Positions 20,678 to 40,644 of a stretch of DNA of 64,000 nt are shown piece after piece (position 1 is the first letter of the stretch; the number at the start of each line of letters is the position of its first letter). The notes below the pieces were generated by a model that was not told where the DNA came from, did not search any database, and was given only the letters and a program-made list of their open reading frames with translations. Both the position numbers and the translations under genes were made by a program. This DNA is from Sphingobium sp. JS3065 (GTDB lineage: Bacteria; Pseudomonadota; Alphaproteobacteria; Sphingomonadales; Sphingomonadaceae), in the NCBI RefSeq assembly GCF_026427355.1, contig NZ_CP102668.1:84601-148600 (forward strand), read 5' to 3'.

Positions 20678-21784
20678 TCAACGCTCCCGCCCACGCTCCG
20701 GCGCTGGCCGCTCGGGACCAGCTCCACCCTCCAGCTCGCGCGTCGGCTGTGTCGCTTGCCGCCCCTGCATCATCTCGCGGGCCAGGGCGAGACGTCGGGA
20801 GACCGCCGGCGGCATAGCCGCCAAGAAACCCGCAATTTCGTCGGAAAGCGCCTGGTCGTCGGCCTCGCCGGTACGTGCAAGCGCCACCGCCGCCTCGGCA
20901 TAAGCACCGCGTATCTGCTTCTGGCGAACCAGCGCCATCACGTCTTGCGGCCGCCGTTCCTCATCGCGCGCGTGCGCAAAGGCCCGGGCGCGCAGCACGT
21001 TGAGTTCATCCATATTGAGCCGGCGCCCCTCCTGACCGATCCGAGCATCGAGATGCAGCGCTGCAGAGCGCACACGCTTTTGAACGTGACCGCGCGCCCG
21101 CCTGGGCGTCGCCTCAGCCGCGATGCCGCGCGCCCGTAGCTCATGCGCGAATGTCTCTCGCATATGATGGAGGTCGGCCTTGCGCGGATTGAACCGCGTG
21201 CCGTCCGCACCTTCTGTGGCCACCGTCAGATGGACATGCGGATGATCGGTATCTGTGTGGAGCGCCAGCATATAGGCGTGATTGTCCTCGAACAGGATCC
21301 GGGCGAACGCCTGGACGGCGTCCTGCAGCGTCTCGGGATCGGTCGAACCGCCGGGCATGGAGAGGACCAGCGACAGCGAGGTCGGCCGATCGCGGCCATG
21401 CTCGTTCATCGCCTCGTCGAGCATAGCCCAGTCCTGCGCGATCTCCTTCAGGCGCTTGGGATCATCAATGATCTCGCCTTCGCTTGAGCGTACCGCAAGC
21501 TTCCCGTGCCGCGCAACATAGCCGAAATGCTCGGATAGATGATGCGCGCCATATTGCTTTCCCGAGACCTTGACCATGACCTCCGGGGCCTTGCGCACGA
21601 TCCGCTCGAGCTTGGCCCGAGCCTCGGCCTGGCTCAGCGGCACGGGCCGCCCCGGCCCTCCCCGGCCCGATCCGCCTCGCCCGACGCGGACATAAGCCCC
21701 CCGCAGTATCCGTTTCCCGCCGGTGGGCGGCCGCCATGCCTCCATGAGGCTGGGCAGCGGCAGGATGCCCTCCTCCTCAAGCAT
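20678..21784 (-). CDS. Relaxase / mobilisation nuclease
   Basis: A protein of about 368 residues from the ATG at 21784, which overlaps the mobC stop by 8 bases. The key signature is the histidine triad motif III, HTDTDHPHVHLTV, typical of MOB-type relaxases that coordinate a metal. Candidate nicking tyrosines lie upstream in GKQYGAHHLSEHFGYVARHG. The C-terminal 120 residues are Arg/Ala-rich and helical. The enzyme would nick the plasmid at oriT and stay covalently bound during transfer. It is shorter than relaxases fused to helicase or primase, so this looks like a mobilisation unit that needs an external or distant type IV secretion system. Confidence 0.82.
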   Translation of the reverse strand: MLEEEGILPLPSLMEAWRPPTGGKRILRGAYVRVGRGGSGRGGPGRPVPLSQAEARAKLERIVRKAPEVMVKVSGKQYGAHHLSEHFGYVARHGKLAVRSSEGEIIDDPKRLKEIAQDWAMLDEAMNEHGRDRPTSLSLVLSMPGGSTDPETLQDAVQAFARILFEDNHAYMLALHTDTDHPHVHLTVATEGADGTRFNPRKADLHHMRETFAHELRARGIAAEATPRRARGHVQKRVRSAALHLDARIGQEGRRLNMDELNVLRARAFAHARDEERRPQDVMALVRQKQIRGAYAEAAVALARTGEADDQALSDEIAGFLAAMPPAVSRRLALAREMMQGRQATQPTRELEGGAGPERPAPERGRER

Positions 21785-22313
21785 CGAGGCTGTCCCAATA
21801 GGCAAGATCGCCCTTGAGCGCGGCGCCGAGACCGGCAAGCGCCGTCCCGATTTCCGCCCGGAAGCTTGCCACCCGCGCCGCCTCGCGGGCAACATCGAGC
21901 CCGGATTCCACCATCACCGAGGCATTGAGCGCCCGCGTCGCCTGATTGAGATTGATGCCGATCCGGTTGAGCTCGCGCCACGCCTGAGCCACTGCCGCCC
22001 GCTCTTCAAGCGGCAGCGATGCCGCCGAATGCAGCCAGCGGCGCACCAGCCTTGTCACCCAGTCTGTGCGCTTCATACCCAAAGCATCAGCCTCGGCATC
22101 CAGCGCGGCAATTTCTGCATCGCTCAGCCGGATCTCAAACCGCCGTGTTGCTCGCTCCCGCCGGCGGACTGGCCCCGACCGCTCGCCCTCCTCCGCGTCC
22201 ACTGCATTCATGACGAGGCGCCGCAGCAAAACCGAGCGGCCACCGGCGCTCTCCGCCACAGCATCGAAGCGCTGAGCGACTGCATCGTCGAGACGAAAGG
22301 TGAAGACGGACAT
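21777..22313 (-). CDS. MobC-like relaxosome accessory protein
   Basis: A 178-residue protein. The N-terminal half looks like a ribbon-helix-helix DNA-binding region (FTFRLDDAVAQRFDAVAE and FEIRLSDAEIAALDAEADAL). The segment RELNRIGINLNQATRALN is the classic MobC core motif. It would bind oriT, open the nic region and recruit the relaxase. It is the first gene of the mob unit; the likely oriT is directly upstream (22314-22440). Confidence 0.82.
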   Translation of the reverse strand: MSVFTFRLDDAVAQRFDAVAESAGGRSVLLRRLVMNAVDAEEGERSGPVRRRERATRRFEIRLSDAEIAALDAEADALGMKRTDWVTRLVRRWLHSAASLPLEERAAVAQAWRELNRIGINLNQATRALNASVMVESGLDVAREAARVASFRAEIGTALAGLGAALKGDLAYWDSLDA

Positions 22314-22440
22314 GCATCAAAGGCTATTGTCATACATCCCCGGCGTCACGCCTATCCGGCCCTCACCTTCACTCAACTCATCTGATAGTCTGCTTGAGCA
22401 GACTTCGACCATATTTGGCAAAATGCGCCTATCATTTACG
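22314..22440 (-). other. Candidate oriT / mob promoter region
   Basis: This gene-free stretch in front of mobC contains a short hairpin (GGCG-TCA-CGCC, 22342-22352) immediately followed by CTATCCGGC, which partly resembles the TATCC core of MOBP nic sites. It also holds the 18-bp palindrome at 22387-22404. Position relative to mobC fits an oriT; the exact nic site is not established. Confidence 0.4.
22387..22404. promoter_or_regulatory. 18-bp palindrome, copy 1 (parS/operator candidate)
   Basis: AGTCTGCTTGAGCAGACT has perfect 8-bp arms around a 2-bp centre. The same palindrome with the opposite centre (CA) occurs at 24578-24595, so the pair brackets the parB-parA-small-protein cluster. This suggests a partition-protein binding site, though a role in oriT is possible because it lies upstream of mobC. 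Confidence 0.6.
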
Positions 22441-25278: not shown

Positions 25279-25286
25279 CTGACTTT

Positions 25287-28088
25287 ATGCAGGACCATGC
25301 GTTCAAGGCTGCGCTCAGTGCCGAGGGACAAGCTACCTCCAGCATCTCCACCCGGCTCTCCGATGCGCGTCGTATAGAAAAGCATTTCGGTGATCTTGAT
25401 GCCGCCTTTGCCCGAGATGGCTGCGCCGCGATCATGCAGGCGCTGACCTATACGACTTCGGACCAAGCGGCAGGTAGGGCCAATCCTTCGGGCATGCCCA
25501 TTGAGGGAAATCTCTATGATTCCCTGAGCAGCTACAGATCGGCTTTATCGGCCTATATTCGTTTTTTGAACGCATCACAGACTAATGTCGATGAATCCCA
25601 GGCTGACCGCATCCGCCAGTTTGTTGCGAGACATTATGCCGATAGCGCGCGCCAGGAGGGGCGCAAGCACTTCACGGTGATCTCAGGTCAGGTGCATCGT
25701 GACATGAATCTTCACAACGCCATGCCCGCTATCTGCAGCGCGCTTGGGTCCAAGAAATTCACTGCGATGATTGATGCCGAGCTTGCCGAGCGCGCAGGTC
25801 CCACCAATAGCTCGACGGTCAAATTTACCTTTGCCTTTCACCCAGACGGCAATTTTGACATCGCCGCAGCCGATCGAGAGCTACGCCGACGCTATGGCGA
25901 TCCCATTCCCACGATCAAACCCGAAGGCAACCAGAAGATCATCAGCTTCGCCCTGCATGATGAAAGACAGATTGCTCTTGAACTAGAGGGGAAAAGCGTC
26001 CGCCTGTGGCTAGAGGACGATGCGGACGCACCGCCGCCGCCTTGCGAGAAATTCGACACCTATCTTCCGAGCCAAGGCCGTCAAACCAATCTTCCGAGCC
26101 GCTTGCGGCACAATCCGCCGGGCGACATGCAAGCGCGACGTGTCATCAAAGCAGTTATTCCCCAGCTATCGACGCTGACCGCCGTGCTGGACTGGTACGA
26201 GGCAATCCACGAGGATATTATGCAACTGACCCGCGAGGCCGTCATTGAGGCAATGGCTGAATGCGATGCGCTAGGCGTTCAGCAGTTTCTCACCACGCAT
26301 GATTTCAGAAATCCCAACAGCTATTGGGTGGAGGAAAAGGGCAGGCATTATCCTGCAAAGGCGATTGCCAATGTCGGGTTACGCGCGATCCTCGGGCCAT
26401 CAACGAAAATCGTCGATGCAACCCGGTCGCGCGACATGCTTACGCGGCTTGGTTTTCTCGTGATCGACCGCAACGCCCAGGAAGATACAACACCGTCGGA
26501 CGAGCCGTTGCTACCGGAAAAACAACTGCCGCAAACCACGAACCTGATCCTGTACGGCCCGCCCGGAACCGGCAAGACCTACGCCACGGCGTGGGAAGCC
26601 GTGCGGCTCTGTCTCGGAGACGCTGCGGCGGCGCAATTGCGCCACGACAGGGATCGCCTGATGGCCGAATATCGCCGCCTCGCTGGCGAAGGGCAGATCG
26701 AGTTCGTCACCTTCCACCAGTCCTTCTCTTATGAGGATTTCGTCGAAGGATTGAGGCCGACGACCCGAACCGAGCTGGAGGGTGACCAGGAGCAGGATGT
26801 TACCGCATCAGGCGGCTTCAGCCTCAAGCCGCATGCCGGTGTCTTCAAGCTCATCAGCGAAAGGGCGCGGCTCGACACGGGTGATGCGCCCACGCGCCGG
26901 CTCGACCGCTCGAGATCGATTTATAAGATCGCCCTCGGACAGCGCGGCAATCAAGAGGATCGCATTAAGGAAGGGCTCGACGGCGCGCTGATCCATCTGG
27001 GCTGGGGTGGCGATATCGACTGGTCCGACGAACGCTTCGACGATTTCGAAGAAATTCGGAAGGAGTGGAACGAGAAAAAGGATCCCGATGCCTCCGGCAA
27101 GGACCCCAATATCGAGATGACCTACGCTTTCCGATCGGGCCTTCAGATCGATGATTATGTGGTCATTTCTGATGGACGGGATAGCTATCGCGCCTTTGGG
27201 CAGGTGACCGGCGAATATCGGTTCGATCCCGATGCCAGTTTCCATCCCCACCGCCGCAGCGTCAAATGGATATGGCGCGATGACGAGGGCGCAGAGCGAA
27301 GCGCCTTCTACCCGCGGAACTTTCGGCGGCAGTCCGCCTATCGATTGGATCCGGACGAGATCGATTGGGATGCGCTGGAAACCGTCGTCATTGGCCCCAA
27401 CGCGGAGCGCCCCGTCGCTGGCGCACGGCCACATGTGCTGGTCATCGACGAAATCAACCGGGCCAACATCTCGCGGGTGTTCGGCGAGCTGATTACGTTG
27501 CTCGAAGTGGACAAACGCTTGGGCTGCGAGAACGAAGTAAGGGTCCGGCTACCCTATTCCGGAACAAGCTTCGGCGTACCGTCGAACCTTCACATCATCG
27601 CCACCATGAACACCGCTGACCGTTCAATCGCGCTGCTCGACACCGCGCTGCGCCGCCGGTTCACGTTCCGCGAGTTGATGCCAGACACCGAAGCGCTTCG
27701 CGGAGCGCTGGCGGCAAAGCAAATCGACGCCAATAATGTCGACGGAATCGATCTGTGCAAACTGATGCGAACCATCAATGAACGGATCGAGTATCTTTTC
27801 GATCGAGAACACCAAATCGGTCACGCCTATTTCACAGGATGCCGCAGACGTGCGGACGTCGAGGACGTCATGCGCCACAAGGTCATCCCGCTTCTGGCCG
27901 AGTATTTCTATGAGGACTGGTCAAAGGTCGCTGCCGTACTCGGCGACAGCGACGGCGCGGCGGGTGCTCGGTTCATTGGGGCAAAAAGGCTTTCCACGCC
28001 GGCGAGCTTTGCTGAAGATGAATTTGGGGGCGACAAGCTGCGCTGGAGCGTGAAGGCAAGCTTCGATTTTTCGGAATTCGAAATCTGA
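25287..28088 (+). CDS. mcrB: McrB-like multidomain GTPase (type IV restriction specificity subunit)
   Basis: A protein of about 933 residues from ATG 25287; the ORF extends upstream only by overlapping the previous gene. Three parts are visible. First, an N-terminal region (1-310) without a clear family. Second, residues about 314-365 (LTREAVIEAMAECDALGVQQ through GRHYPAKAIANVG) resemble the N-terminal head domain of ScoMcrA-type enzymes. Third, the AAA+ motor has Walker A GPPGTGKT near residue 424, Walker B VLVIDEIN near 719 and the McrB signature MNTADRS near 774. About 190 residues are inserted between Walker A and B, including DYVVISDGRDSYRAFGQVTG, which looks EVE-like. McrB hydrolyses GTP and recognises modified DNA; the modification recognised here is unknown. 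Confidence 0.85.
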   Translation: MQDHAFKAALSAEGQATSSISTRLSDARRIEKHFGDLDAAFARDGCAAIMQALTYTTSDQAAGRANPSGMPIEGNLYDSLSSYRSALSAYIRFLNASQTNVDESQADRIRQFVARHYADSARQEGRKHFTVISGQVHRDMNLHNAMPAICSALGSKKFTAMIDAELAERAGPTNSSTVKFTFAFHPDGNFDIAAADRELRRRYGDPIPTIKPEGNQKIISFALHDERQIALELEGKSVRLWLEDDADAPPPPCEKFDTYLPSQGRQTNLPSRLRHNPPGDMQARRVIKAVIPQLSTLTAVLDWYEAIHEDIMQLTREAVIEAMAECDALGVQQFLTTHDFRNPNSYWVEEKGRHYPAKAIANVGLRAILGPSTKIVDATRSRDMLTRLGFLVIDRNAQEDTTPSDEPLLPEKQLPQTTNLILYGPPGTGKTYATAWEAVRLCLGDAAAAQLRHDRDRLMAEYRRLAGEGQIEFVTFHQSFSYEDFVEGLRPTTRTELEGDQEQDVTASGGFSLKPHAGVFKLISERARLDTGDAPTRRLDRSRSIYKIALGQRGNQEDRIKEGLDGALIHLGWGGDIDWSDERFDDFEEIRKEWNEKKDPDASGKDPNIEMTYAFRSGLQIDDYVVISDGRDSYRAFGQVTGEYRFDPDASFHPHRRSVKWIWRDDEGAERSAFYPRNFRRQSAYRLDPDEIDWDALETVVIGPNAERPVAGARPHVLVIDEINRANISRVFGELITLLEVDKRLGCENEVRVRLPYSGTSFGVPSNLHIIATMNTADRSIALLDTALRRRFTFRELMPDTEALRGALAAKQIDANNVDGIDLCKLMRTINERIEYLFDREHQIGHAYFTGCRRRADVEDVMRHKVIPLLAEYFYEDWSKVAAVLGDSDGAAGARFIGAKRLSTPASFAEDEFGGDKLRWSVKASFDFSEFEI

Positions 28089-29398
28089 TGCCATCCTACA
28101 TCGTTCGCGAGTGGGACAAACTCACTTATGGCGACGGCGCGGTCCAGATTCCCCCGCACCACGCTGATAAGCTGGCCAGCCTAGCCGCCCAATCGGCATT
28201 TGCCGGGCGGGGCGGAGGCGGCGTGCTCGACCACGGTCGACACGCCTTGCGCGCGCGGGGCGTGGTAGGAATTCTGGCGGCCCGCGATTGCAGCTTGGAG
28301 ATTCTACCCAAGATAGACGTAGCGCCAGGCGAAACGATCGATCATCAAAATGCGGCGATCCGAAAACGCCTGATCCACATGCTGGCTGTCGCGCTCGATC
28401 TCAAAATCGACCTTGGTGCGGTGACTGATCTTGCCTGGCAGCGCGAAACGCTGCTTGAAATCCTGATCCGCATCTTCTGCGACAAGCTGACCGAAGCCCT
28501 GCGCAAGGGCACGCCGCGTCGCTATGTCGGGCATGAGGAAGATCTGCCGACACTGCGCGGCAGGCTCGACATTACCCGGCAGTTCACCCGCCATGCCGTC
28601 AACCCATCCCGCCTGGCCTGCCGCTTCGATCTTCTGTCGGAGGACATAGCGCTCAACCGCATCATGAAGGCGGCCATTTCGCACGTGTCCCGCATATCGC
28701 GTCGTCCGGCCAACCAACAGCGATTGCGCGAACTCGCCTTCGTCTACGCGGACATAACCGATGTACCGGTGTCGGGCCTACGATGGGATGAAGCGGTCAT
28801 CGATCGCACCAATCGTCCTTGGCGAGACTTGTTCGGCATGGCCCGGCTTCTCCTCCAGAGCCGCTACCAAACAACGACCGGCGGCACCGGTCAGGGGACC
28901 GCCCTCCTCTTCGAAATGAACACCTTGTTTGAGGAGTATGTCGGGCGGCTGATAGCACGCGCGCTTGCCGGAACGGAGTTTACCGTATCTCTGCAGGGCG
29001 GGCGATTGTTCTGCCTCTCTGCCGAGGACAGCGGCCGCGGCCTGTTCCAGACCAAACCGGACATTCTGATCCGTCGTTCGGGCGTCGTGGTACATGTGAT
29101 CGACACCAAATGGAAAAGGATCGCATCACGAATGGATGATCCCAAGCAGGGGGTCTCCCAAGCCGACATCTATCAGATGATGGCCTATGCGCAGCTTTAT
29201 CATGCTCCGCGGCTAACGCTGCTATATCCGCACCATCCAGGCTTGGGCATGACAGAGGCGGTCCACGCCCAGCACCGCATCACCGGCCACACAACCCTTT
29301 TAGAGACAGCGACCGTCGATGTGTCGAGCAGCGTCGACATGCTTGCGCGCCTGCGCCGCCTGCTCCTGTGCGAAGATGCCGCCCTCAGCGCATCCTAA
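28088..29398 (+). CDS. mcrC: McrC-like nuclease subunit
   Basis: A 436-residue protein starting MPSYIVREWDKLTYGDGAV, whose ATG overlaps the McrB stop (TGATG). The N-terminal half matches the McrC interaction domain (SLEILPKI, RRYVGHEEDLPTLRGRLD). The C-terminal half holds a PD-(D/E)xK nuclease core: KPDILI and VIDTKWK, about residues 322-341, followed by QADIYQMMAYAQLY. McrC stimulates McrB GTP hydrolysis and cuts DNA. The full motif set suggests an active enzyme. Confidence 0.88.
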   Translation: MPSYIVREWDKLTYGDGAVQIPPHHADKLASLAAQSAFAGRGGGGVLDHGRHALRARGVVGILAARDCSLEILPKIDVAPGETIDHQNAAIRKRLIHMLAVALDLKIDLGAVTDLAWQRETLLEILIRIFCDKLTEALRKGTPRRYVGHEEDLPTLRGRLDITRQFTRHAVNPSRLACRFDLLSEDIALNRIMKAAISHVSRISRRPANQQRLRELAFVYADITDVPVSGLRWDEAVIDRTNRPWRDLFGMARLLLQSRYQTTTGGTGQGTALLFEMNTLFEEYVGRLIARALAGTEFTVSLQGGRLFCLSAEDSGRGLFQTKPDILIRRSGVVVHVIDTKWKRIASRMDDPKQGVSQADIYQMMAYAQLYHAPRLTLLYPHHPGLGMTEAVHAQHRITGHTTLLETATVDVSSSVDMLARLRRLLLCEDAALSAS

Positions 29399-29444: not shown

Positions 29445-31700
29445 TTACGTCTCGGAGAGTTTTCTCAAGCCTTCGTAGTGAAGCGGCGCCACAGACTTAA
29501 TCATATCCAATAAATATTCTGCGTTCTTTTGCGCCTCTGCCACGAGGGCAGGATCAAAACTCTTTCCTGTATGGTGCGACAGGTCATTTGCAAATTTATA
29601 AATTGCCGTCTTTTTGATCGGGTCATAATCCACGTCATCCATTTTCTGATAAAGCGACTTGCGCGATGGAACATGGAAGTCGAGAAACGTCTCAAGTACT
29701 TTACGAGAAATATTTGGAACATGGTAACAACCGAGAATCGTTCCATCTGATTTGAATGTATGGAGCACCTTGAAGAGATAGTGATACTCGGTCGCATGAT
29801 CGATCAAAAGCCTATCCAACGGAGTTATCCTCGCAGATCGACCTTCTTCAGTCTCCGTGCATAGCACCATCGAATAGGATTTCGTATTTTCTTGGCCGCG
29901 CACATTCTGCAGCCAGTTTATGATTAACTTAAGGAATTCAAAATTATGGGTCAGGATGAATAGTTGCTTCGCGCGCTGGGTCTCGTTCTTGAGGAATGCG
30001 AAGGCCTGATAGATCGCCGAAGCATCAAGACTGGAAATCGGATCGTCGATGACGACGATTCCTTCGCCAATGTTAAAATCCTGATCCTTAAGTTGCACGA
30101 GGAAATAGATGAAGGCGACGGCTGTCTTTTCGCCCTCACTCAGGCGCTTGGCCGGCTTGCCGCGCCGCAGGACGCGATAGCCCTCATCGCCGGACTCAAA
30201 GCGTAGCTCCGTCCTGCCAAGGAACTGTTTGAGAAGGTCGGTCAGGCCAAGCCCGCCCGCATGTGCACTTGAAACCTTGGCTTGCTTCTCTCGAATTGAC
30301 TGAGACAGAGCCTCGATCCCGCGTTTGTCCTCAAGATCCTCACCGCCGTTTTGCCACAGTTCGATTTCAGCATTCAGCTTTGCAGCCTTGTCAGTTAATT
30401 CTTCGACATCGGCTTTGATGGACAGAAGATGATGCGCCTCAATGGCGTCGCGGGCCGCCCGCTTCTCTCGCTCGAAGCCTGCCGTTTTGTCATTATGGCG
30501 CGCGATGAGCGCCTTAATCATGCCCAGCGCTGCGGTCAGCTGTATCGTATCACAGGCGATTTCCGGCTCATAAGCCGTGGTCCGCAAGGTCAGCTTTTCG
30601 GTCAGGATCCCATCGATCTTCTCCAGGCTCAGCTGCAGGGTCGCGAGCTCAGCTTCAACCGATGTCTGCGCGGCGTCGTAATCTGCTCGAAGTTCGGAAT
30701 AGAACATCAGACGATCGGGCAGCGCCGTCCTGCCAAGCGCATCGATGATGGCGCGGAGGCTGAGGCGCTCCGCGTCGATTTCTTCCTTCAGCCTTTGGTC
30801 TTCGACACTGAAATGGTCGGAAAGTGCCCTGAGGCGGTCAGCAGGCATGATCTGGTCGCAGAATTCGCAGCGACCGGTTGCATGTTTGGCATGGATACCA
30901 ACGCCTTGTTCGGCCCAGAGGGCTATATCGGGGTTTTCCGCAAGACGGGCGATGACGGCCGACTGCGCCGAACGCATCGTCAGTGCCTTGGCACGATCCC
31001 CGGCGCCAGCGGCAGCCTGCAAGGCGCTGATGGGCTCCTGCCCCGGTCGTTCGGGACCCCGCGGGATGGTGAGCGGGTTAATCTCGGGCATTTGCTCCTG
31101 ACGAACGGTGCCGCGATGAACCTCGTATTCGCCTTCGGATAGAGCCCTCTCATCCCCAAGCTTGACGTAGGCTGCTTCAGCGTCGGGCTTGCGATAACTG
31201 CGAAGGGTTGACCCGCTGGTGGCCTCACCAATGGTCTTGGCGATGGCGGAAAACAACTTGCCCTTGTCATTCACAAGCTTGACCACGGCAGCCTCATTGG
31301 CCTGGACACGCTTTACTCGATCGTCGCGAATGGCGATTTCAGCCTTCAGCTCCTCGGCAATGGCCTTGTTCTCTTCGCCGAGGATGAGAATATGCCGAAG
31401 CGGCCCGTCGAAACGACCGATATTCGCTTCAACAAAGTCGCTGTTGAAGACACGTACGCGGCGGCCATACTTCACTCCCTTCGTGAGCTGGCCGGACTGC
31501 GATTCAACTGTGAACTCAAGATCGGGGTGATCGGGATGCTCACCCGATTCCAGGCAGGCAAGCAGCCGCGAGAGGGTTGTTTTGCCAGAGCCATTCTCGC
31601 CATAAACTACGTTGTAGCGGCCAAAGGCGGGAAAATCGGCGGCCGCCGCGTAATCGCCAAAAACGCCTAAGCCCTTAATCTTCTTGATCTGAGTAAGCAT
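29445..31700 (-). CDS. RloC/PrrC-like ABC ATPase with putative anticodon-nuclease domain
   Basis: A 751-residue SMC/ABC-type protein. The N-terminal Walker A is VVYGENGSGKTTLSRLL. A long helical middle carries a CEFC pair near residue 278, the zinc-hook position known in RloC. The distal ATPase half has the ABC signature RLSEGEKTA, Walker B IVVIDDPISSLD and the H-loop FILTHNFEFLK. The last 100 residues contain R666-x3-E670 and H709/H710 (ISRKVLETF ... NDLSHHTG). This resembles the Arg-Glu-His triad of PrrC and RloC anticodon nucleases, though the Glu-His spacing is longer. Such enzymes cleave tRNA when a companion restriction system is inhibited. The gene is convergent with mcrC, and its 3' third is more AT-rich than the rest. 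Nuclease assignment is inference. Confidence 0.7.
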   Translation of the reverse strand: MLTQIKKIKGLGVFGDYAAAADFPAFGRYNVVYGENGSGKTTLSRLLACLESGEHPDHPDLEFTVESQSGQLTKGVKYGRRVRVFNSDFVEANIGRFDGPLRHILILGEENKAIAEELKAEIAIRDDRVKRVQANEAAVVKLVNDKGKLFSAIAKTIGEATSGSTLRSYRKPDAEAAYVKLGDERALSEGEYEVHRGTVRQEQMPEINPLTIPRGPERPGQEPISALQAAAGAGDRAKALTMRSAQSAVIARLAENPDIALWAEQGVGIHAKHATGRCEFCDQIMPADRLRALSDHFSVEDQRLKEEIDAERLSLRAIIDALGRTALPDRLMFYSELRADYDAAQTSVEAELATLQLSLEKIDGILTEKLTLRTTAYEPEIACDTIQLTAALGMIKALIARHNDKTAGFEREKRAARDAIEAHHLLSIKADVEELTDKAAKLNAEIELWQNGGEDLEDKRGIEALSQSIREKQAKVSSAHAGGLGLTDLLKQFLGRTELRFESGDEGYRVLRRGKPAKRLSEGEKTAVAFIYFLVQLKDQDFNIGEGIVVIDDPISSLDASAIYQAFAFLKNETQRAKQLFILTHNFEFLKLIINWLQNVRGQENTKSYSMVLCTETEEGRSARITPLDRLLIDHATEYHYLFKVLHTFKSDGTILGCYHVPNISRKVLETFLDFHVPSRKSLYQKMDDVDYDPIKKTAIYKFANDLSHHTGKSFDPALVAEAQKNAEYLLDMIKSVAPLHYEGLRKLSET

Positions 31701-33467: not shown

Positions 33468-33875
33468 TCAGAATGGGATTTCATCGTCCTCAGGCTCATG
33501 GCCACCGCCTGCGTTGTCGTTCGCCTTGGCGCGGGTGAGGAAGGTCACTTCATCGGCGATGATCTCGACGCCGTAGCGCTCGATATTCTCGTTGTCGGTC
33601 CAGCGGGTGTAGTGAATGCGGCCACGGACCATGACCTTCATGCCTTTGTCGACATACTGCTCGACCGTCTTGCCGACCCCGTTGAAGCAGGTGATCCGAT
33701 GCCATTCGGTATCCTCGAGCCGGCGGTTATTGTCGTCGCGGAGGATCTTGCCGTTGCTGTCGCGCTTCGGGCGCGAGGTGGCCAGGCTGAAATGGGTGAT
33801 ACGGGTGCCGCCCTGGGTGGTGCGGGCTTCGGGCGTGGCGCCGACATTGCCGGCGAGGATGACGAGATTCTGCAT
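33468..33875 (-). CDS. ssb: Single-stranded DNA-binding protein
   Basis: A 135-residue SSB starting MQNLVILAGNVGATPEART. It has an OB-fold (FSLATSRPKRD, TEWHRITCFNGVGKTVEQYV, KVMVRGRIHYTRW) and the acidic tip DDEIPF that docks SSB partner proteins. A plasmid-borne SSB can coat incoming single strands and dampen the SOS response after transfer. The gene carries a long structured leader (33964-34030) that also occurs upstream of the DUF2493 gene. Confidence 0.92.
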   Translation of the reverse strand: MQNLVILAGNVGATPEARTTQGGTRITHFSLATSRPKRDSNGKILRDDNNRRLEDTEWHRITCFNGVGKTVEQYVDKGMKVMVRGRIHYTRWTDNENIERYGVEIIADEVTFLTRAKANDNAGGGHEPEDDEIPF

Positions 33876-33963
33876 GGCTGAAGTTCCTTCGAACTGGGTC
33901 CAAGGGACCGTCCCTTCGACTGATCCCCGGCCAAGGCGGACAGGACGGACCATCCACCGGCAG

Positions 33964-34030
33964 GCGCAGCGCCGGGAAACCCCGAGACAAGGGGTGGTGC
34001 GGGCAGCCGTGGGACACGGCAACTCGGCCC
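33964..34030 (-). ncRNA. Structured leader RNA upstream of ssb
   Basis: This block lies 89 bases upstream of the ssb ATG on the same strand. It shares the core GGCCGAGTTG, CTGCCCGC, CCACC, TTGTC and GGGTTTCCC strings, in order and spacing, with 36081-36151. Its three hairpins use different bases but keep pairing: GCCGTG/CACGGC here versus GGCGC/GCGCC there, and GGCGC/GCGCC here versus GGGC/GCCC there. Such covariation supports a conserved cis-regulatory RNA. A further gene-free 280 bp up to 34308 shows nothing else supportable. Confidence 0.65.
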
Positions 34031-34308
34031 GAGGGCTCGCGGGTTGGATGGGCTGGATGGCCGACTTAGGGGTCAGATGAGGAGAAGGACGTTTCGTCGC
34101 TTGGCCGTGCCAGGAACCCCTCCATGGTAATCATGGGCATCCGCGAGCTATGGGACCACGCCGGTCCAACAGCTTGGCGAACCTCAAACTCGACTTTGCC
34201 CCGCCCGCCGCCTCAAACCGCGCGGCGAACGGACCATGTTCCGCGCCGCGGTCCGGCGGAACCCAAACGATGGCATGCTTATGCAAGGGGATAGGCAAGA
34301 AGGCGCAG

Positions 34309-34937
34309 TTACGGCGCCGGCATCGGCAGGCTTAGTCCGGCCGCCACGGCATCGAGGAGCGAGCCCGTCGCGCGCAGTGCGGCCGCGAAATCGCAAACAT
34401 AACCATCCGCCACCAGCGCGTCGATGCGATGCGCGGCATAGGCGGGACCGAGGCTTGTAAGAACATCGACGAGAATACGGCTCCGGGACGGGAGGCCGAG
34501 CTGTCGCGCCTCTTCAAAGGCGGTAAGGAGGTCGTGACCGATATCGCTCGCGACCTCCTCGTGCGACCAGCCCCGGCTCATAAGATAGGCTTTGAGTCCC
34601 AGCTCGCAGGATATCGCCAGCAGGTGCAGCGCCGGGGCAGAGGCAACGGTAGCTCCAAAGCGTGCCCCTTCGTGAAACTCGCGCGCGCGATCAAGGAAGA
34701 TCGAGGCGGCCTGCCGATCGCCGAGCTCCGCCAATCTCTCGATCGCGCGCCAGCGGTGCGACGATAGCCGGCGAAGCCATGCCGGGCCGGCCTGGTTGCG
34801 CAACTGGCGCAGGCACGCGCCTCTTCGATGTCGCGGCCGGTTGACCACAAGAACAACAGCTTCGCTTTCCAGTAGCGGCCATACGCCGTGCGAAAAGCCA
34901 GGAGCGCGCGCGCCGTGGGGTGATCGGGCATGAACAT
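34309..34937 (-). pseudogene. Frameshifted helical (HEPN-like?) protein gene
   Basis: The start at 34937 (MFMPDHPTARALLAFRTAYG) has GGAGG 8 bases upstream and reads convincingly to RDIEEARAC near 34820. The protein then continues in a different frame as LRQLRNQAGPAWLRRLSS, on to CELGLKAYLMSRGWSHEE and GHDLLTAFEEARQLGL. One missing base near GCGCGTGCCTGCG would explain this. The second half resembles HEPN-like helical bundles (CELGLKAYL ... GHDL). The lesion may be genuine or a sequencing error. No precise family assigned. Confidence 0.5.
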
Positions 34938-35018
34938 GGTGCAAACCTCCGGGAAAACAGGACGCCACCGTCCTGCCCTCCTCCCCTCCGGCATTTGCAG
35001 CATTTCGAAACGGGGAAA

Positions 35019-35040
35019 GCCGGCCGCCGAAGCGGCCGGC
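35019..35040 (-). terminator. 9-bp-stem hairpin after the DUF2493 gene
   Basis: GCCGGCCGC, loop CGAA, GCGGCCGGC: a perfect stem 9 bases beyond the stop of the leftward DUF2493 gene. The CGAA tetraloop is GNRA-like in stability. Confidence 0.6.
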
Positions 35041-35048
35041 GCGGCGGA

Positions 35049-35990
35049 TCAACCGCAGGATCGCGACGCTGGCGGCGTGCCAAGCGGTCCGCGGCGATCA
35101 ACGACGTGGATGCCGCGCGCCTTGGCCTCGATCACCAGCCTTTCAGTGACACCATTGCCTTGAAAGGCGATGACGTAGCGCGGCTTGACCGAAAGCATCT
35201 GCTCATTGCGGCGGAACCCCGCGCGATCGCCGAGCTTGCGATCGAGCCCGAACCGCAGCTGCTGGATACCGTTCTGCTCGGCCCAGGACGCGGCCAGGCG
35301 CTCAATGCCTTTCATGTCGCCGCCATGGACGAGATACATGTCGCCCACCCGCTCACGAACGGCATTGAGCGTTCGCAACAGGTTATCCGCGAACTGCTTG
35401 GCATCGTCGTCGCTGGCGAAACGCAGCCGCCCGCCGGCGAAGATCACGGGCGTGCCATGGACCATATTGGCATCGCGCACCCTTTCTCGCCGCGCCTGGA
35501 GATAGGACCGGCCATCGACGATCGCCGCGGTCGTGCCGAGCGAAATGCGGTTGCCCGACGCCGGCACCCAGGAACGGCCCGTCTCGTGGAGATAATGGCG
35601 GGCCGCCGTGTCGCGCATGGTCTCATAAGCCTCGGCGGACTGCTCGATCTTGCGGGCGAGATCGATCTTGTCCTCAAGGTCGGCGGTCGCGACCTCCGAG
35701 CCATCCTGCTCGGCGAGCACGAGCCGAATTTCGTCCGTCAGCCGGTCGATCATCTGGTGCTTCTTGGCGGCGGCGCGGTGGAAAAGATTGACCAGGCCCC
35801 AGCCCAGATCCTCGATGTCGCGCTCGAGCGCACTAAAGGGAAAAAGCGCGAAAAGATCGCTCCAGACAGCGCTGACAGTTTGTTCCATGGCTTCGGCGGG
35901 GGGCGGCGCCTCTAGGGTGCGCAGGTCGCTGGTGCGATCAAGATGACCGAGTTCGAGCGCGGAGAGTATCGCTGAGAGAGTGCTGGTCAT
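35049..35990 (-). CDS. DUF2493 (SLOG-type nucleotide-binding) plasmid protein
   Basis: A 313-residue protein from ATG 35990. The C-terminal third (VRERVGDMYLVHGGDMKGIE, then KPRYVIAFQGNGVTERLVIE and HVVDRRG) is a DUF2493/SLOG Rossmann-like domain, related to DprA and lysine-decarboxylase-like folds that bind nucleotides. The N-terminal 200 residues are helical with an Asp/Glu-rich centre. SLOG proteins can sense nucleotide-derived signals; the function in plasmids is unknown. Its leader carries the same structured element as ssb, so the two genes are probably co-regulated. Confidence 0.8.
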   Translation of the reverse strand: MTSTLSAILSALELGHLDRTSDLRTLEAPPPAEAMEQTVSAVWSDLFALFPFSALERDIEDLGWGLVNLFHRAAAKKHQMIDRLTDEIRLVLAEQDGSEVATADLEDKIDLARKIEQSAEAYETMRDTAARHYLHETGRSWVPASGNRISLGTTAAIVDGRSYLQARRERVRDANMVHGTPVIFAGGRLRFASDDDAKQFADNLLRTLNAVRERVGDMYLVHGGDMKGIERLAASWAEQNGIQQLRFGLDRKLGDRAGFRRNEQMLSVKPRYVIAFQGNGVTERLVIEAKARGIHVVDRRGPLGTPPASRSCG

Positions 35991-36080
35991 GAGCTTTGCC
36001 TTTCGTTCCACTTGGGGCCGGCGGCCCATCCGCCGGATGCGCAGCCTCCGGGCCATCGAAGGAAGCGGCGGCAGCACCGC

Positions 36081-36151
36081 CGGGCAAAGCCCAAGGGAAA
36101 CCCGGGACAATGCCAGGTGGAGCGGGCAGGCGCGCAAGCGCCAACTCGGCC
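36081..36151 (-). ncRNA. Structured leader RNA upstream of the DUF2493 gene
   Basis: Second copy of the ssb-type leader, about 90 bases before the DUF2493 ATG. Conserved blocks are GGCCGAGTTGG, CCTGCCCGCTCCACC, TTGTC and CGGGTTTCCC. The stems here are GGCGC-GCAA-GCGCC (36130-36143) and GGGC-AAA-GCCC (36082-36092). Differences from the ssb copy are concentrated in the paired arms and preserve pairing. Confidence 0.65.
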
Positions 36152-36181
36152 GGATTGGCCCCGGGTTGCGGCCGCCAGCGC

Positions 36182-36563
36182 GATGGCCCAAGCATGCGCA
36201 TCCTCTGGCGAGGGGCCAAGGTCTCAACGGGAAGAGCAGGCGCTTGCTGGCCGGAACAGCGACTATGCAGTGCCGCGCTCGCTCGTGGGGATGGGACGGG
36301 CGTGCCGAACCGGTCCGTCGTCGGCACGCCCGTCTCCAACATGCGGCTCAATCACCGCACGCGGCCGGTCCATATGACGGCCGGCCTGGTGGGCTTCCTG
36401 CGGGATCGCCGCCATTCCCACCGCCATGCTCGATCCGCCCCATCGTGCGGCGTCTCCCATGGTCCCCGCGCTTATCGGGTCCGGGTCCCCATCATCCGTC
36501 CACCTGAGCTGACATTGTGCCGATTGCCTCGATCTCAGCGATCCGCTGAAATTCGCCGAGATA
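36182..36563. other. Gene-free spacer
   Basis: Between the DUF2493 leader and the end of the leftward ParB pair. Open frames here are low-complexity and on the wrong side of any ribosome site. No hairpin, repeat or gene could be supported. Confidence 0.5.
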
Positions 36564-37448
36564 TTACTGGCGATGATTGGAAAGCCACCGCGAAACCCGC
36601 GCATTGCCGAGCAGCTTGGCGATATAGCCGCGCGCCACGGTCAGGTGGAGATTGTCGATCCCGTAACTATCCTCGACCGACTTGACTTGGGTCTGCAGCG
36701 CCGCGAGCTCGCGTTCCATGCGCGCGATCTGCTGGCTCGTCGGACCAGAGGCATCGGGCCTTGTCGATTTCCGTTGGGCGACTAGCTGCTCATCCGGCGT
36801 CGCGGCCAGGAGCGCGCGCGCGAACATGAGGGTAAAGTTGTTCTGGCCGATCATCAGGTCCGCCGCCTCGATTTGGCGTACCGCCGACATGCGCCGCAAG
36901 ATATCGAACACCTTCATCGAGCAATTGGTGTCCTTCAGCATATCGGCGGCTTCCGGAGTGATGCCGTCGAGCAAACGGAAGCGCCGCCGTATCGACTGTA
37001 CCTCAAGGCCGAGCGCGTCGGCGATCATCGCCGAGGCGACCCCGCGCTCAATGGCCCGGACGATCATTCTGTGTTCCTGCACCGGCGGTAGGCGGTTGAC
37101 CCTTTTGTTGTAGGTATAGGTCTCGTCGTCCGTCGCGATCAGGCAATCGACGCTTTGCACCTCAAGCTGCTTGAGCGCCTCGATGCGCAGATGGCCATCG
37201 AGCAGGAAATATTTCCCGGGATGCTGCGTGTCGGGAACGACGGCGGGCGCCTCGACAAGGCCGATCGCCTTGATAGAACTCACGATCTGCGCGAATTTCC
37301 GGCTATCGCGCACCCCTTCCCGCAACGACTTCAGGGCGACGATGGCATCGATCGGCACGGTTACGGTCTCGCGCTCGAAGCCAAGGCTCACGCGATTGTC
37401 GGTGCCCGTTTCGTCCATTCCGCCGCCGTCCAATGCCCAGTCAGTCAT
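36564..37448 (-). CDS. ParB-like protein with RepB-type C-terminal region (third gene of recombinase module)
   Basis: A protein of about 294 residues from ATG 37448, where GGAG sits 6 bases upstream; 37454 is an alternative. The N-terminal ParB nuclease-like fold is visible as IDAIVALKSLREGVRDSRKF, GLVEAPAVVPD and FLLDGHLRIEALKQL. A helical part follows (HRMIVRAIERGVASAMIADAL, SIRRRFRLLDGI) typical of RepB-type partition C-termini. It overlaps the preceding ParB-like gene by 8 bases. No ParA is encoded with it, so it is unlikely to be a classic partition protein and may act with the recombinase. Confidence 0.75.
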   Translation of the reverse strand: MTDWALDGGGMDETGTDNRVSLGFERETVTVPIDAIVALKSLREGVRDSRKFAQIVSSIKAIGLVEAPAVVPDTQHPGKYFLLDGHLRIEALKQLEVQSVDCLIATDDETYTYNKRVNRLPPVQEHRMIVRAIERGVASAMIADALGLEVQSIRRRFRLLDGITPEAADMLKDTNCSMKVFDILRRMSAVRQIEAADLMIGQNNFTLMFARALLAATPDEQLVAQRKSTRPDASGPTSQQIARMERELAALQTQVKSVEDSYGIDNLHLTVARGYIAKLLGNARVSRWLSNHRQ

Positions 37449-38340
37449 CGTCATCTCCTGCGATCCGGAGGGCGAGCGCGCGCGGCATTGTCTCAAGGCA
37501 CTCAGCGCGCAGCAATGTCACAAACCCCTCATCAGCGAGGAGGTCCTTCATGGCCTCCACAATGAACAGCAGCCGGGTCTGGGTAAAATCGGATTTCTTG
37601 ACCAAAAGGCGCTGCTTTTCAGCCTCTCGCTGGTAGACCTGCATGAGGTCGTTGGCGGTCATCTTCCGGTTGGCATTTTTCCGGCCCAACCGCCCCTGCG
37701 AGAGCGACCTGTTGCGACCACGCATGCGCAAATCAAGAAGGCGGCGGACAGCCGCCAGTTTCTTGCCTCGCAGCTTGCCGGTTTCATAGGCCTCAAGCAG
37801 GAGACTTTGCGCCTCCTCGGTCTCAGCGCGGGATATCTCCATAGCGAGACTGATGGGAATCAGGCCGGTCTCGACCGCCGCGACGAGCCGCTCCTCGCCC
37901 CGCTCGAGCAGTGAAACGACCATGCTGACCCAGGAGCTGGCGACGCCGATCTTCCGTCCGATTTCCGCCTCGCTATATCCGCGATTGCGCAAGGCGCCGA
38001 CCTCGCGCATCACGTCGATCGGCCGCTGCACCCGACGCGCAATATTCTCGACCAGGCTCATCACCAGACATTCGTTCTCGCTGGCTTCGATCACCACCGC
38101 GGGAATTTCCGACTGGCCGAGCATTTGGAAGGCCTCGAGGCGGCCCTCTCCGCAGACCAGATCATAACGCGGGCCACTCGGGCCATCATGGCGGCTCACC
38201 GTGATCGGACGTTTGAGACCAATGGTCTCAATATTGTTCACGATCTCCCGGTGCTGCCGCTTGTTTCGGGCGCGTGGATTAAGGACGGTAATCCGCGAGA
38301 TCGGGATGAGCTCGATCTGCTGTGGGCGTGTGGCGGACAT
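37441..38340 (-). CDS. ParB-like protein (second gene of recombinase module)
   Basis: A 299-residue protein. The N-terminal domain has IELIPISRITVLNPRARNKR, GLKRPITVSR and LVCGEGRLEAFQML, with the HTH YSEAEIGRKIGVASSWVSMV in the middle. The C-terminal region contains basic helices (AAVRRLLDLRMRGRNRSLSQ). Its ATG overlaps the recombinase stop (TGATG). The absence of a neighbouring ParA and strict coupling to a serine recombinase suggest it provides DNA binding or sliding-clamp function for recombination. Confidence 0.78.
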   Translation of the reverse strand: MSATRPQQIELIPISRITVLNPRARNKRQHREIVNNIETIGLKRPITVSRHDGPSGPRYDLVCGEGRLEAFQMLGQSEIPAVVIEASENECLVMSLVENIARRVQRPIDVMREVGALRNRGYSEAEIGRKIGVASSWVSMVVSLLERGEERLVAAVETGLIPISLAMEISRAETEEAQSLLLEAYETGKLRGKKLAAVRRLLDLRMRGRNRSLSQGRLGRKNANRKMTANDLMQVYQREAEKQRLLVKKSDFTQTRLLFIVEAMKDLLADEGFVTLLRAECLETMPRALALRIAGDDDD

Positions 38341-39926
38341 CAGGCTGCCTCCGCAATGGCGATCGGTGCGGCGATTTCATACAGCAGGTCGAGGGTGTCG
38401 AAGCGATAGGCGTCAAGGCTAAGGCCATTGTCTTCTGCAAGCCGCAGGCGGTCGGCGACAAGATCGAGGCGCGGAAACAGATAATAGTCGAAAGCGGCCC
38501 GGTTGGCGGTATCCATGCGCACGACGATGGTGATGTCGGGCATCCGCGACGTGTCGAAGCGGATCTTCCAGCGCAGCAACCCCGTGGGCGTAGGGTTACA
38601 ACGGACGATGGCGACCGAGAGGCTGAATTCCTCGTTGACGATCACGCGGTCGGTCTGGAAGTCCTGAACGGCCTCGCTGCCCATATCGCGCAGGCCATCG
38701 AGCACTTGGCCGAGGATCTCCGGATGAAGTTTGCGCAAGGCCCGATTGATCGCGACATATCGATAGTCCCGATCCGGCGTATATCCGACCAGATCATATG
38801 CGCGCAGCAGGCTTCCGAACCGGGAGCTGTAGGCACTGCTCGAGGGCATGCCCTCGCACTCGTCGATGATTATCCCCGACAAGAGGCCCCGTCTGTCCAA
38901 GAGGACCTTTAGCGCGCTCAGCATTTCGGTGTCCGACAATCGGAACGAACGAGCGCCGATGATTGCCTTGGCGGCTTCGAAGAGGTCACGCTCGACGATG
39001 GCATCGAACGCGCCGGCAGCCCGGATCCACATTTCCGGGTCGTTGCGGACGCGCTTCTTCTTCAGCTTGAAGGATTGCCGGTTCCACACATTGTCACCGG
39101 CATATTTCTCGTTGATCAGCACTTGGTGGACGGTTCCCCGGGTCCAGGGACGATCAAGATCGGTCGGAATATGGCGGCGGTTGAGATCGTCGGCGATGTC
39201 CTGTTCGCTGCGCCCCTCATGCACGAAGGCGTGATAGATATCCCGAACAATGGCGACTTCTTCGGGCGGGCCAGGCGTGAGGATCACGCGGTCGGTCTGA
39301 ATGCTCTTATGCTCTCCGCGCGTCAGAATCCCTTTTGTTTCGCCGCGCTCATCGACGAGGGTGCGCCGAAGCCCAAATCCAGCAGGCCCGCCCTGGCGAA
39401 AGCCCTTTTCGATGAGGCGTCCCTGCCCGGCGAACACCTTGACCGACAATTCGCGGCTATATTCTCCGGCCATCGCGCGTTTGACGCCCTTGACGATCGT
39501 CGACACCGGACTGCCGTCATTCTCGAACTGCTCGGTGCAATATTCGACGGATATCCCTGAGCGTTTGCAGATATATTCATAGTAGGCGCTTTCATCGGCG
39601 TCCTGGAATCGGCCCCACCGGCTGACGTCATAGACGAGCACCATGGTATAATCGGCAACACCCGTCTGAACGTCGTCGATCAGTTGCTTGAGGGCGTCCC
39701 TGCCATCGATCTTGAGACCGCTTTTGCCGGCATCGGCATAGGTCCGGACGATCTCGATACCGTGGGCGGCGGCATAGTGACGGATCGCCTCGGCCTGGTT
39801 CTCCGTCGAGTATTTCTGGTGATCGGTGGACATGCGAACATATTCGGCGGCGCGCACGATCGGCGATGCCGGGTCATGGTCGGTGCCGTCTTGAGTGCGC
39901 CAGTCCTCCAAGGCTCGCCTCTCCAT
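38340..39926 (-). CDS. Large serine recombinase (first gene of recombinase/ParB/ParB module)
   Basis: A protein of about 528 residues from ATG 39926, preferred over an ORF start at 40049. The N-terminal resolvase/invertase catalytic domain contains the nucleophile serine in AAEYVRMSTDHQKYSTENQ and the conserved VYDVSRWGR. The central recombinase domain follows (FGLRRTLVDERGETKGILTR, then EKYAGDNVWNRQS). The C-terminus is atypical and lacks an obvious zinc-ribbon cysteine cluster. It forms an operon with two ParB-like genes and is divergent from an HTH gene, a module that may mobilise or invert DNA. Confidence 0.83.
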   Translation of the reverse strand: MERRALEDWRTQDGTDHDPASPIVRAAEYVRMSTDHQKYSTENQAEAIRHYAAAHGIEIVRTYADAGKSGLKIDGRDALKQLIDDVQTGVADYTMVLVYDVSRWGRFQDADESAYYEYICKRSGISVEYCTEQFENDGSPVSTIVKGVKRAMAGEYSRELSVKVFAGQGRLIEKGFRQGGPAGFGLRRTLVDERGETKGILTRGEHKSIQTDRVILTPGPPEEVAIVRDIYHAFVHEGRSEQDIADDLNRRHIPTDLDRPWTRGTVHQVLINEKYAGDNVWNRQSFKLKKKRVRNDPEMWIRAAGAFDAIVERDLFEAAKAIIGARSFRLSDTEMLSALKVLLDRRGLLSGIIIDECEGMPSSSAYSSRFGSLLRAYDLVGYTPDRDYRYVAINRALRKLHPEILGQVLDGLRDMGSEAVQDFQTDRVIVNEEFSLSVAIVRCNPTPTGLLRWKIRFDTSRMPDITIVVRMDTANRAAFDYYLFPRLDLVADRLRLAEDNGLSLDAYRFDTLDLLYEIAAPIAIAEAA

Positions 39927-40029
39927 GGGTTTGCTGCAGCAGCCAGGGCGACCATCCGCTGCCGCACGAAACCCACGACTGCTCGCCTCTACGTTCTCAT
40001 CAGCAGTGTAGCTGCGAAAGGAACGGGAG

Positions 40030-40644
40030 ATGTTGCCGAAAAAGGGCAAGAAGTTACCGGCTTGGAAAGGGGCGTTGGCCGGGCGCCAGGCCTATGCAGA
40101 CGTGATGGCCGACTTACTGAAGAAGGAACACGGGGACAGCCACCGCGCCGTCAAGCTGCTCATGCGCCAAACGGACGCGAGCGAACGCACCATAAAGCAC
40201 TGGCTTGCCGCTCAACATGGCCCGGATACGGTGTTTTTTCTGCGGCTCGTTGCGACATCGCCCGTCATCCGCGCGTTTGTCCTGGGCGTTATCGAAAGCC
40301 CTGTGATGGCCCGGCAATCCTCTCGGCCCATGCGCTGGGATGTCGTGCCGCTAACACCCCAAACGGCTGCAGCAAACACGATGCGTCAGCATCCCGTCGG
40401 AAATGACCCTATAAATGACCCTGATCATGACCCCATAAATGGCCCAATGACGGAGGGCCTGAATGAACGTCAGCGCTGGTTTCTCGACCGAGTCGGCAAG
40501 GGAGATCGCCCCAAGGCCTGGGATATCATGGCTCACTGGCAGGTCAGCCCCAAGACGGCCCGGCGCGACATCCGGGGGTTGCAGTCTGCTGGCCTGCTGC
40601 GTTTCGAAGGCGCCCGGCGTAATGGGCGATATAGGCTTGTCTAG
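40030..40644 (+). CDS. HTH regulator divergent from the serine recombinase
   Basis: A 204-residue protein. The N-terminal half (RAVKLLMRQTDASERTIKHW) forms one HTH-like unit. A linker with tandem DPINDPDHDPINGP repeats follows, then a C-terminal DeoR/winged-HTH (AWDIMAHWQVSPKTARRDIR, GLLRFEGARRNGRYRLV). Only about 100 bp separates it from the divergent recombinase, so it probably controls the shared promoter region. Confidence 0.7.
   Translation: MLPKKGKKLPAWKGALAGRQAYADVMADLLKKEHGDSHRAVKLLMRQTDASERTIKHWLAAQHGPDTVFFLRLVATSPVIRAFVLGVIESPVMARQSSRPMRWDVVPLTPQTAAANTMRQHPVGNDPINDPDHDPINGPMTEGLNERQRWFLDRVGKGDRPKAWDIMAHWQVSPKTARRDIRGLQSAGLLRFEGARRNGRYRLV

Follow-up and report, generated by a model that had tools for sequence, protein, structure and literature searches.

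A covarying fold before ssb and DUF2493 genes of Sphingomonadales conjugative elements, possibly a single-strand promoter on the incoming T-strand

Single-strand promoters are best documented in enterobacterial plasmids. Plasmid F carries two such elements, Frpo1 and Frpo2 (ssi), in its leading region, with Frpo2 before ssb and the transferred strand (T-strand) as the template; according to the excerpted text of PMC9849209, deletion of either Frpo left no significant expression of the tested downstream reporter genes in the recipient, and a leading gene of the opposite orientation was expressed only after second-strand synthesis. More broadly, a survey of the 300 commonest leading-region families is reported to find genes for anti-defence proteins, methyltransferases, SSB and toxin-antitoxin systems encoded on the T-strand (excerpt of PMC11541004). 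Here we analyze a 64,000-nucleotide stretch of Sphingobium sp. JS3065 (contig NZ_CP102668.1, positions 84,601 to 148,600), hereafter the window, whose layout is alike: two copies of a structured element lie 2.1 kb apart, one before ssb and the other before the gene for a DUF2493 protein. On balance we lean toward reading this element as a single-strand promoter, Frpo-like in action and unrelated to Frpo in sequence.

Several other described motifs bear on this comparison, including single-stranded DNA structures such as attC sites, which belong to integrons. Together with the OTH-22-1 motif, attC sites show that RNA pipelines have turned up single-stranded DNA structures before (excerpt of PMC8632094); no integron context was noticed around the present element, although none was searched for. 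The STAXI motif (Weinberg 2010), like the present element, occurs near ssb, as well as antirestriction and integrase genes, and its authors weighed a role in single-stranded DNA and preferred RNA because of its UUCG loops (excerpt of PMC2864571). STAXI has repeated pseudoknots. The present element has no Rfam match: at gathering thresholds none was found in the window or in ten homologue loci, and at E<=10 the region 33850-36300 returned only two weak, chance-level matches to unrelated families. A covariance-model match to STAXI itself was likewise absent from the window, the site and the ten homologue loci. The radC motif is proteobacterial and associated with genes whose products act on DNA. 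The first-pass annotation had named it as a class to which the element might belong, and this we discard: none of 41 genomes reached the RF01754 cut-off (a score of at least 40 bits), and the site gave no such match at E<=10. All RF01754 listings in relatives fell below the cut-off, and control genomes gave such matches as well (7 of 14). A literature search limited to open-licence papers, available in part, yielded no published description of the element.

To delineate the family we used a covariance model, R1, built from 17 sequences that include both window copies, with a match threshold of E<=0.01. The seed came from a pattern scan of named genomes that gave at least 118 stretches, many of them chance matches; only those passing a stricter core pattern were used (36 matches in 28 loci and the window, 3 of which are unrelated by eye and 2 of which repeat the window copies). 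The two window copies and the genes that they precede are as follows.

33950..34051, minus strand: element copy 1, before ssb (core 33975-34046); an R1 match by construction, as a seed member
34045..34051, minus strand: copy 1, 5' arm of helix P0, CCATCCA; partner TGGATGG at 33950-33956
34036..34044, minus strand: copy 1, 5' arm of helix P1, ACCCGCGAG; partner CTCGGGGT at 33979-33986
34020..34026, minus strand: copy 1, conserved CGAGTTG, mostly unpaired; CG[A/T]GTTG in much of the family
34006..34020, minus strand: copy 1, hairpin P3, GCCGTG-TCC-CACGGC
33993..34006, minus strand: copy 1, conserved CTGCCCGCACCACC
34028-34030 and within 33991-33994, minus strand: copy 1, probable P2, GGG and CCC, respectively
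33957..33975, minus strand: copy 1, hairpin P4
36067..36176, minus strand: element copy 2, before DUF2493 (core 36096-36168); an R1 match and seed member
36167..36176, minus strand: copy 2, 5' arm of P0, GGCGGCCGCA; partner TGCTGCCGCC at 36067-36076, with one mismatch
36157..36166, minus strand: copy 2, 5' arm of P1, beginning ACCCGGG; partner TCCCGGGT at 36100-36107
36142..36148, minus strand: copy 2, conserved CGAGTTG
36129..36142, minus strand: copy 2, hairpin P3, GGCGC-TTGC-GCGCC
36082..36092, minus strand: copy 2, hairpin P4, GGGC-TTT-GCCC
33468..33875, minus strand: ssb, single-stranded DNA-binding protein (Pfam SSB, E 2.2e-27)
35049..35990, minus strand: DUF2493 or YspA-type SLOG protein (Pfam YAcAr, E 5.9e-17; DUF2493 is the name used in annotated relatives)

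The first-pass annotation had described five sequence blocks recurring in order upstream of both genes and had read them as a structured leader RNA of a conserved fold; taken as a whole, this interpretation is partly supported. The blocks do occur in that order on the minus strand before both genes, and the hairpins that it named are present (GCCGTG/CACGGC versus GGCGC/GCGCC and GGCG/CGCC versus GGGC/GCCC), whereas the two longest helices, P1 and P0, had been missed. The distance to the start codons, given as about 90 bases, is actually 100 bases past the core end for ssb (ATG at 33875) and 106 for DUF2493 (ATG at 35990). A conserved fold is borne out, here and in many other genomes, and it is the relatives found here that support it rather than the two copies once offered as direct evidence, which are weak alone: folded singly as RNA (33940-34060 and 36045-36180), they are unremarkable, with z-scores of -0.65 and -1.22. 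Two instances of the spaced pattern CGAGTTG..CTGCCCG..GGGTTTCC are present in the 5.1-Mb genome and none of its reversed control, and the looser model R1 matches 5 places in this genome. The three further copies comprise a pair at C1:387919-390290 (plus strand), on a 3.6-Mb contig, and a single one at C3:239271-239343 (minus strand); given these additional copies, two or more such conjugative elements may be present in the strain.

A search with R1 recovered further structured homologues, the lack of which had been named as grounds for abandoning the idea of a conserved fold, in 96 of 396 genomes of the window's order (Sphingomonadales). A wider sample of the class yielded only 5 of 385, including the window's own genome and one of its family. 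Hosts among the matches listed include Sphingomonas, Sphingobium, Novosphingobium and Qipengyuania, as well as Tropicibacter, Pseudorhodobacter, Pseudooceanicola and Sulfitobacter, which we take to be Rhodobacterales. Applied to 129 sources, a subset of the fetched loci, R1 found 121 and 43 places, or 143 distinct copies, and their genomic position is fixed: by tblastn, 96 precede an SSB gene and 45 a DUF2493 gene, with the other 2 at contig ends, so that every testable copy (141 of 141) precedes one of these two genes. The core ends 83-129 bases before the estimated start in ssb copies and 93-116 bases in DUF2493 copies. Where copies neighbor each other in the fetched loci, 32 of 33 pairs consist of a DUF2493 copy and an ssb copy, co-oriented and separated by 1.5-5.0 kb; in pSLPG of Sphingobium sp. 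SYK-6, too, elements lie directly before the ssb and DUF2493 genes. We consider the structure and the family near certain. A short variant lacking an evident P3 hairpin is represented by 17 sequences (e.g., L192:3567-3622, L193:494-549 and L201:228-286; core of 56-59 bases; E 2e-5 to 4e-3), all 17 of which precede DUF2493 and none ssb. Two Aquidulcibacter loci (L059 and L110) share the conserved blocks with different P1 arms; they gave no R1 match at E<=0.01, were not counted and are perhaps a diverged branch. Among viral contigs, 10 stretches contained the pattern, and none passed the stricter core pattern.

Inspection by eye combined with strand-neutral folding defined an outer helix, P0 (..CCA/TGG..), and a helix P1 (ACC../..GGT), which pairs the CAACC... 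arm with ...GGTTTCC and is continued by P2. Hairpin P3 sits between CG[A/T]GTTG and CTGCCCGCNCCA, and hairpin P4 follows GGTTTCC; P0, P1 and P4 would in this model meet as a three-way junction. The helices are strongly supported by comparison across 40 cluster representatives: P1 has a mean of 10.43 Watson-Crick pairs, against 5.22 when 3' arms are swapped between clusters (maximum of 200 rounds, 6.33), even with 34 distinct P1 arms in the 40 clusters, and P0 has a mean of 9.62, against 6.37 for swapped arms (highest, 7.1). In the model alignment of 93 distinct rows, which uses R1's version of P2, 87.7% of the cells pair, compared with 73.2% in column shuffles, and the covariation score of 0.308 (0.080 in shuffles) was equaled in none of 500 shuffles. 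A third measure, further standard pair types, was no lower in any of the 500 shuffles, owing to the near absence of G-U; this gave an initial hint that folding does not take place in the sense strand. R1 assumed P2 to be CGGGC/GCCCG, a register that we rejected; P2 is more probably GGG/CCC adjoining CACCACCC, and the P2 A.C cells in three counts (14, 4 and 11) are register artefacts. The strand argument therefore rests on DNA-energy z-scores and on strand-neutral mismatch counts.

RNA tolerates G.U pairs, and the G.T pairs of the complementary strand appear as A.C on the sense strand. An excess of A.C on the sense strand therefore makes the template strand look like the folding strand. Folding was then restricted to Watson-Crick pairs with symmetric loop costs, a scheme that gives no advantage to one strand over the other. 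Under it, the isolated mismatches of 61 representatives comprised 25 A.C, 7 G.T and 67 others, compared with 81, 83 and 502 in shuffles (Fisher p 0.003). Inside P0-P4 (66 clusters, 141 sequences), there were 32 A.C, 7 G.T and 87 others, and 23 A.C and 7 G.T without the commonest position; this count left out mismatches outside P0-P4 (23 A.C, 2 G.T and 23 other cells) and 2 of 143 sequences with short flanks. Tested against 0.5, the cluster values gave p 7e-5 with all positions and 0.005 without the dominant one, for clusters that are not fully independent; against a cautious baseline of 0.64, the all-position value gave p 0.02. Coding windows beside the elements (n=122) had 29 A.C and 35 G.T. 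The model columns held 8 G.T (77 expected), 94 A.C (134 expected) and 198 other cells (484 expected), a count that includes the misplaced P2 (14 A.C cells) and one dominant position, the pair adjoining AACC/GGTT. The tolerance of G.U on the sense strand that an mRNA leader or riboswitch-type RNA would be expected to display is thus not seen in the mismatch counts. Folding as DNA points the same way: after correction with dinucleotide shuffles, the 61 representatives had a mean z of -2.53 for the template and -1.77 for the sense strand (p 4e-7). Mutation bias, considered as a cause of the A.C excess, was rejected as having the wrong sign. At four-fold sites of the downstream genes, summed over close pairs, C/T differences numbered 120 per 2873 C+T and A/G differences 13 per 732 A+G, and in a second set the values were 829 per 5580 and 207 per 2824; as C/T differences are the commoner relative to composition, such a bias would favor G.T rather than A.C. 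In light of these comparisons, we regard the template strand as the probable folding strand, with fairly good confidence.

The orientation of the elements relative to the conjugation genes provides a further line of evidence. The relevant features of the window are the following.

20678..21895, minus strand: relaxase of family PF03432, on the same strand as the elements
22351..22362, plus strand: nic-like CCTATCCGGCCC, one base off the RP4 sequence CCTATCCTGCCC

For a broader survey we took 150 element places among the matches listed, to which all relaxase and nic-like counts below refer, and searched two partly overlapping sets of 51 genomes, one for PF03432 and the other for PF08751. A relaxase occurred within 30 kb on 62 contigs, and on 60 of these the nearest one lay on the same strand downstream of the element (PF03432, 16 of 16 contigs; TrwC, 44 of 46); 45 of the 150 elements had no relaxase on their contig, and for 11 it was farther away. 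Many of these contigs are related plasmids, so the counts are not independent events. The nic-like CCTATCCGGCCC, which differs by one base from the RP4 nick region as printed in the excerpted PMC3772185, stands beside the relaxase on 10 of the 16 PF03432 contigs. It lies between relaxase and element in all 10 and is never otherwise placed near those relaxases; on these contigs and in the window, the strand that leads in the 3' direction from the site to the element is the elements' template. The T-strand is thus assigned by similarity to the RP4 nick region, and the nic assignment is likely but unproved: the altered base is part of the core hexamer ATCCTG, neither the nic-like site nor the proposed oriT contains an exact match to the MOBP nick consensus YATCCTGY, and 6 of the 16 contigs have no such site. 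Elsewhere, YATCCTGY has 11 matches in the window (7 by chance) and 13 in the pSLPG stretch (5 expected), and 14 of 16 genomes hold 39 occurrences of CCTATCCNGCCC in all, most of them at other locations; on one further contig (G212:C46) it is next to a relaxase but no element is present. On pSLPG (MOBP, MPF_T), a single strand encodes the relaxase, MobC, ParB, ParA, ssb, DUF2493, a zincin-like metallopeptidase (labeled ArdC-like by us), a ParB-like protein, a strawberry-notch-like protein, a toprim protein and a second ssb, with a few hypothetical genes on the opposite strand.

Four observations come from computation: the structure is conserved and covaries, it holds a fixed position ahead of ssb or DUF2493, its orientation to the relaxase and the nic-like site is largely constant, and its mismatches have the signature of template-strand folding. 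The last two, together with the template DNA-fold z-scores, are why we favor a conserved fold of the T-strand in conjugative plasmids and integrated elements. On entering the recipient single-stranded, the T-strand would fold into the three-way junction of P0, P1/P2 (carrying P3) and P4, with the conserved unpaired bases exposed. The fold could then be recognized by host factors, RNA polymerase being the likeliest by analogy with the Frpo of F, and the next gene transcribed from the T-strand template. SSB and the DUF2493 protein would thus be made before the second strand exists, and second-strand synthesis would remove the fold and switch it off. Folding in vivo, a start of transcription (rather than, or besides, primer synthesis) and early expression are what we infer from this arrangement.

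Comparison with F supports an analogy of function. The element is found in the leading region before genes templated by the predicted T-strand, and by computation that strand forms a stable fold, although only weakly for each window copy by itself. One strand of the F stretch carries 21 of its 23 annotated features, including ssb, psiB, traM, traJ and traY. The Frpo elements of F-like plasmids have the lower DNA energy on the template strand in 9 of 9 cases and, after composition correction (15 shuffles; Frpo1 of F replacing the pO103 piece), in 7 of 9. There are also differences. The element shows no clear sequence similarity to the Frpo copies in 20 kb of F; Frpo rebuilds -10 and -35 boxes by folding, whereas the linear scan found no such hexamers in the element; the element is a GC-rich three-way junction of about 110 bases, whereas the two Frpo copies of F match each other over about 420; and its hosts, unlike those of Frpo, are Sphingomonadales and some Rhodobacterales with PF03432 or TrwC relaxases. 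The element therefore probably works like Frpo without being a member of it, sharing layout, gene and, probably, strand signature. More tentatively, and with less than even confidence, we suggest a separate class of single-strand DNA promoter that arose independently of Frpo, in which the junction is read via the loops CG[A/T]GTTG, CTGCCCGCNCCA and GGTTTCC rather than -10/-35 boxes and drives expression of SSB and of the SLOG-family DUF2493 protein. The latter would be a novel factor for establishment or counter-defence, and the element would be a standard entry switch of conjugative elements in Sphingomonadales.

Several results weigh against a promoter on the T-strand. Without the commonest position, the mismatch excess is not significant against the 0.64 baseline (p 0.18), and inside P0-P4 other mismatches are commoner than A.C (87 versus 32). 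Uncorrected DNA energy favors the template strand in 93% of the shuffles too (97% of the elements); as shuffles also fold better as template, raw energies mislead and only z-scores count. Those of both window copies are weak on either strand, and 2 of the 9 corrected Frpo z-scores favor the other strand. When each sequence is folded by itself with Watson-Crick pairs, the best structure includes P1 for only 73 of 141 sequences and P0 for 88 of 141, so the structure rests on comparison. Two of the 62 relaxase contigs break the geometry, namely G315, with a TrwC fragment in a 164-residue frame, and G376. A 20-kb stretch of F with both Frpo copies showed no clear similarity to the elements (best E 0.02, 61 queries), and a linear scan of 33800-36650 with the Escherichia coli consensus found no sigma-70-like site, although alphaproteobacterial or folded boxes could escape such a scan. 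The thiamine pyrophosphate (TPP) riboswitch control, too conserved to be informative, lacks a sense-strand signature (5 G.T and 4 A.C), so the method is unvalidated on a known RNA. Finally, strand-wise RNAalifold was set aside because it favored the wobbles of whichever strand was folded, with 15 G.U and 3 A.C in 12 common pairs, and G.T cells are present in the corrected P2.

The last two observations speak for the alternative proposed by the first-pass annotation, that the element forms a structured leader at the 5' end of the ssb and DUF2493 mRNAs whose RNA fold, on binding a ligand or protein, modulates translation or termination. A conserved, strongly covarying fold about 100 bases before start codons would suit such a leader, and the Watson-Crick helices would form in RNA as well. 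However, G.T is the most depleted sense-strand mismatch (8 against 77 expected, and 7 against 25 A.C), the reverse of what RNA predicts; the opposite, template strand folds better as DNA after correction; and no terminator-like hairpin lies at the elements, the 2 sites found being inside DUF2493. With the position relative to relaxase and nic-like site, this makes an RNA leader probably wrong, and we consider it unlikely.

Somewhat less likely still is a single-strand initiation site on the T-strand that attracts primase or a primosome to prime second-strand synthesis and stands before ssb because this region enters first. The strand and geometry evidence serves this proposal as well as it serves a promoter, and the lack of promoter-like hexamers in the linear scan would suit it. 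Priming would not, however, call for the spacing seen in all 141 testable copies, with one of the two genes starting 83-129 bases beyond the end of the copy, and the pairing of a DUF2493 and an ssb copy within 1.5-5 kb, seen in 32 of 33 neighboring pairs, would be redundant for it. A feature of double-stranded DNA, either a cruciform or protein-binding repeats, accords with the GC-rich inverted repeats but is very improbable: a cruciform uses both strands, so that A.C and G.T should be equally frequent, and sequence-specific binding of the duplex is unlikely because the arms are so variable. An antisense RNA folding from the opposite strand would yield the same A.C signature and has the least to recommend it, requiring a gene-proximal promoter of which the linear scan saw none and leaving the orientation to relaxase and nic-like site unexplained.

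The window also carries conflict-related and mobile genes around these features. A McrBC-type restriction pair (25212-29398, plus strand; an AAA_5 protein and a PF10117 McrBC protein) occupies the interval from parA to ssb and runs in the opposite direction to the leading-region genes. On the same strand as ssb, and some 1.8 kb downstream of it, is a 751-residue AAA_13 protein (29445-31700, minus strand) matching the candidate defence family PDC-S06 (E 3e-281) and, more weakly, PrrC. Upstream of the DUF2493 copy, 36564-40049 (minus strand) encodes a serine recombinase and two RepB/ParB-like proteins; the corresponding place in pSLPG is taken by arsenic-resistance genes, and an insertion hot spot possibly adjoins element copy 2. 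Farther away, two pairs of transposase-like open reading frames (ORFs), each identical by eye (1632-2477 and 9802-10647; 5359-6729 and 7471-8841), occur in and around a type III restriction-modification locus, whose restriction ORF spans 10292-13591 and whose methyltransferase ORF (4260-5303) covers no more than the initial part of its family model.

The single-strand promoter that we favor may be an early "on" switch for plasmid entry, of a kind best known from gut bacteria. The large Frpo/ssi survey, which according to the excerpt of PMC11541004 relied on similarity to known sequences and on -10/-35 matches, would for that reason likely miss this family. If the reading is true, plasmid genes would be switched on from incoming single-stranded DNA in another bacterial class by an unrelated structure, and the DUF2493 protein would be a candidate early-establishment factor. 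The A.C-versus-G.T test would then also offer a simple probe of whether other "RNA" motifs near ssb or antirestriction genes are in fact single-strand DNA elements.

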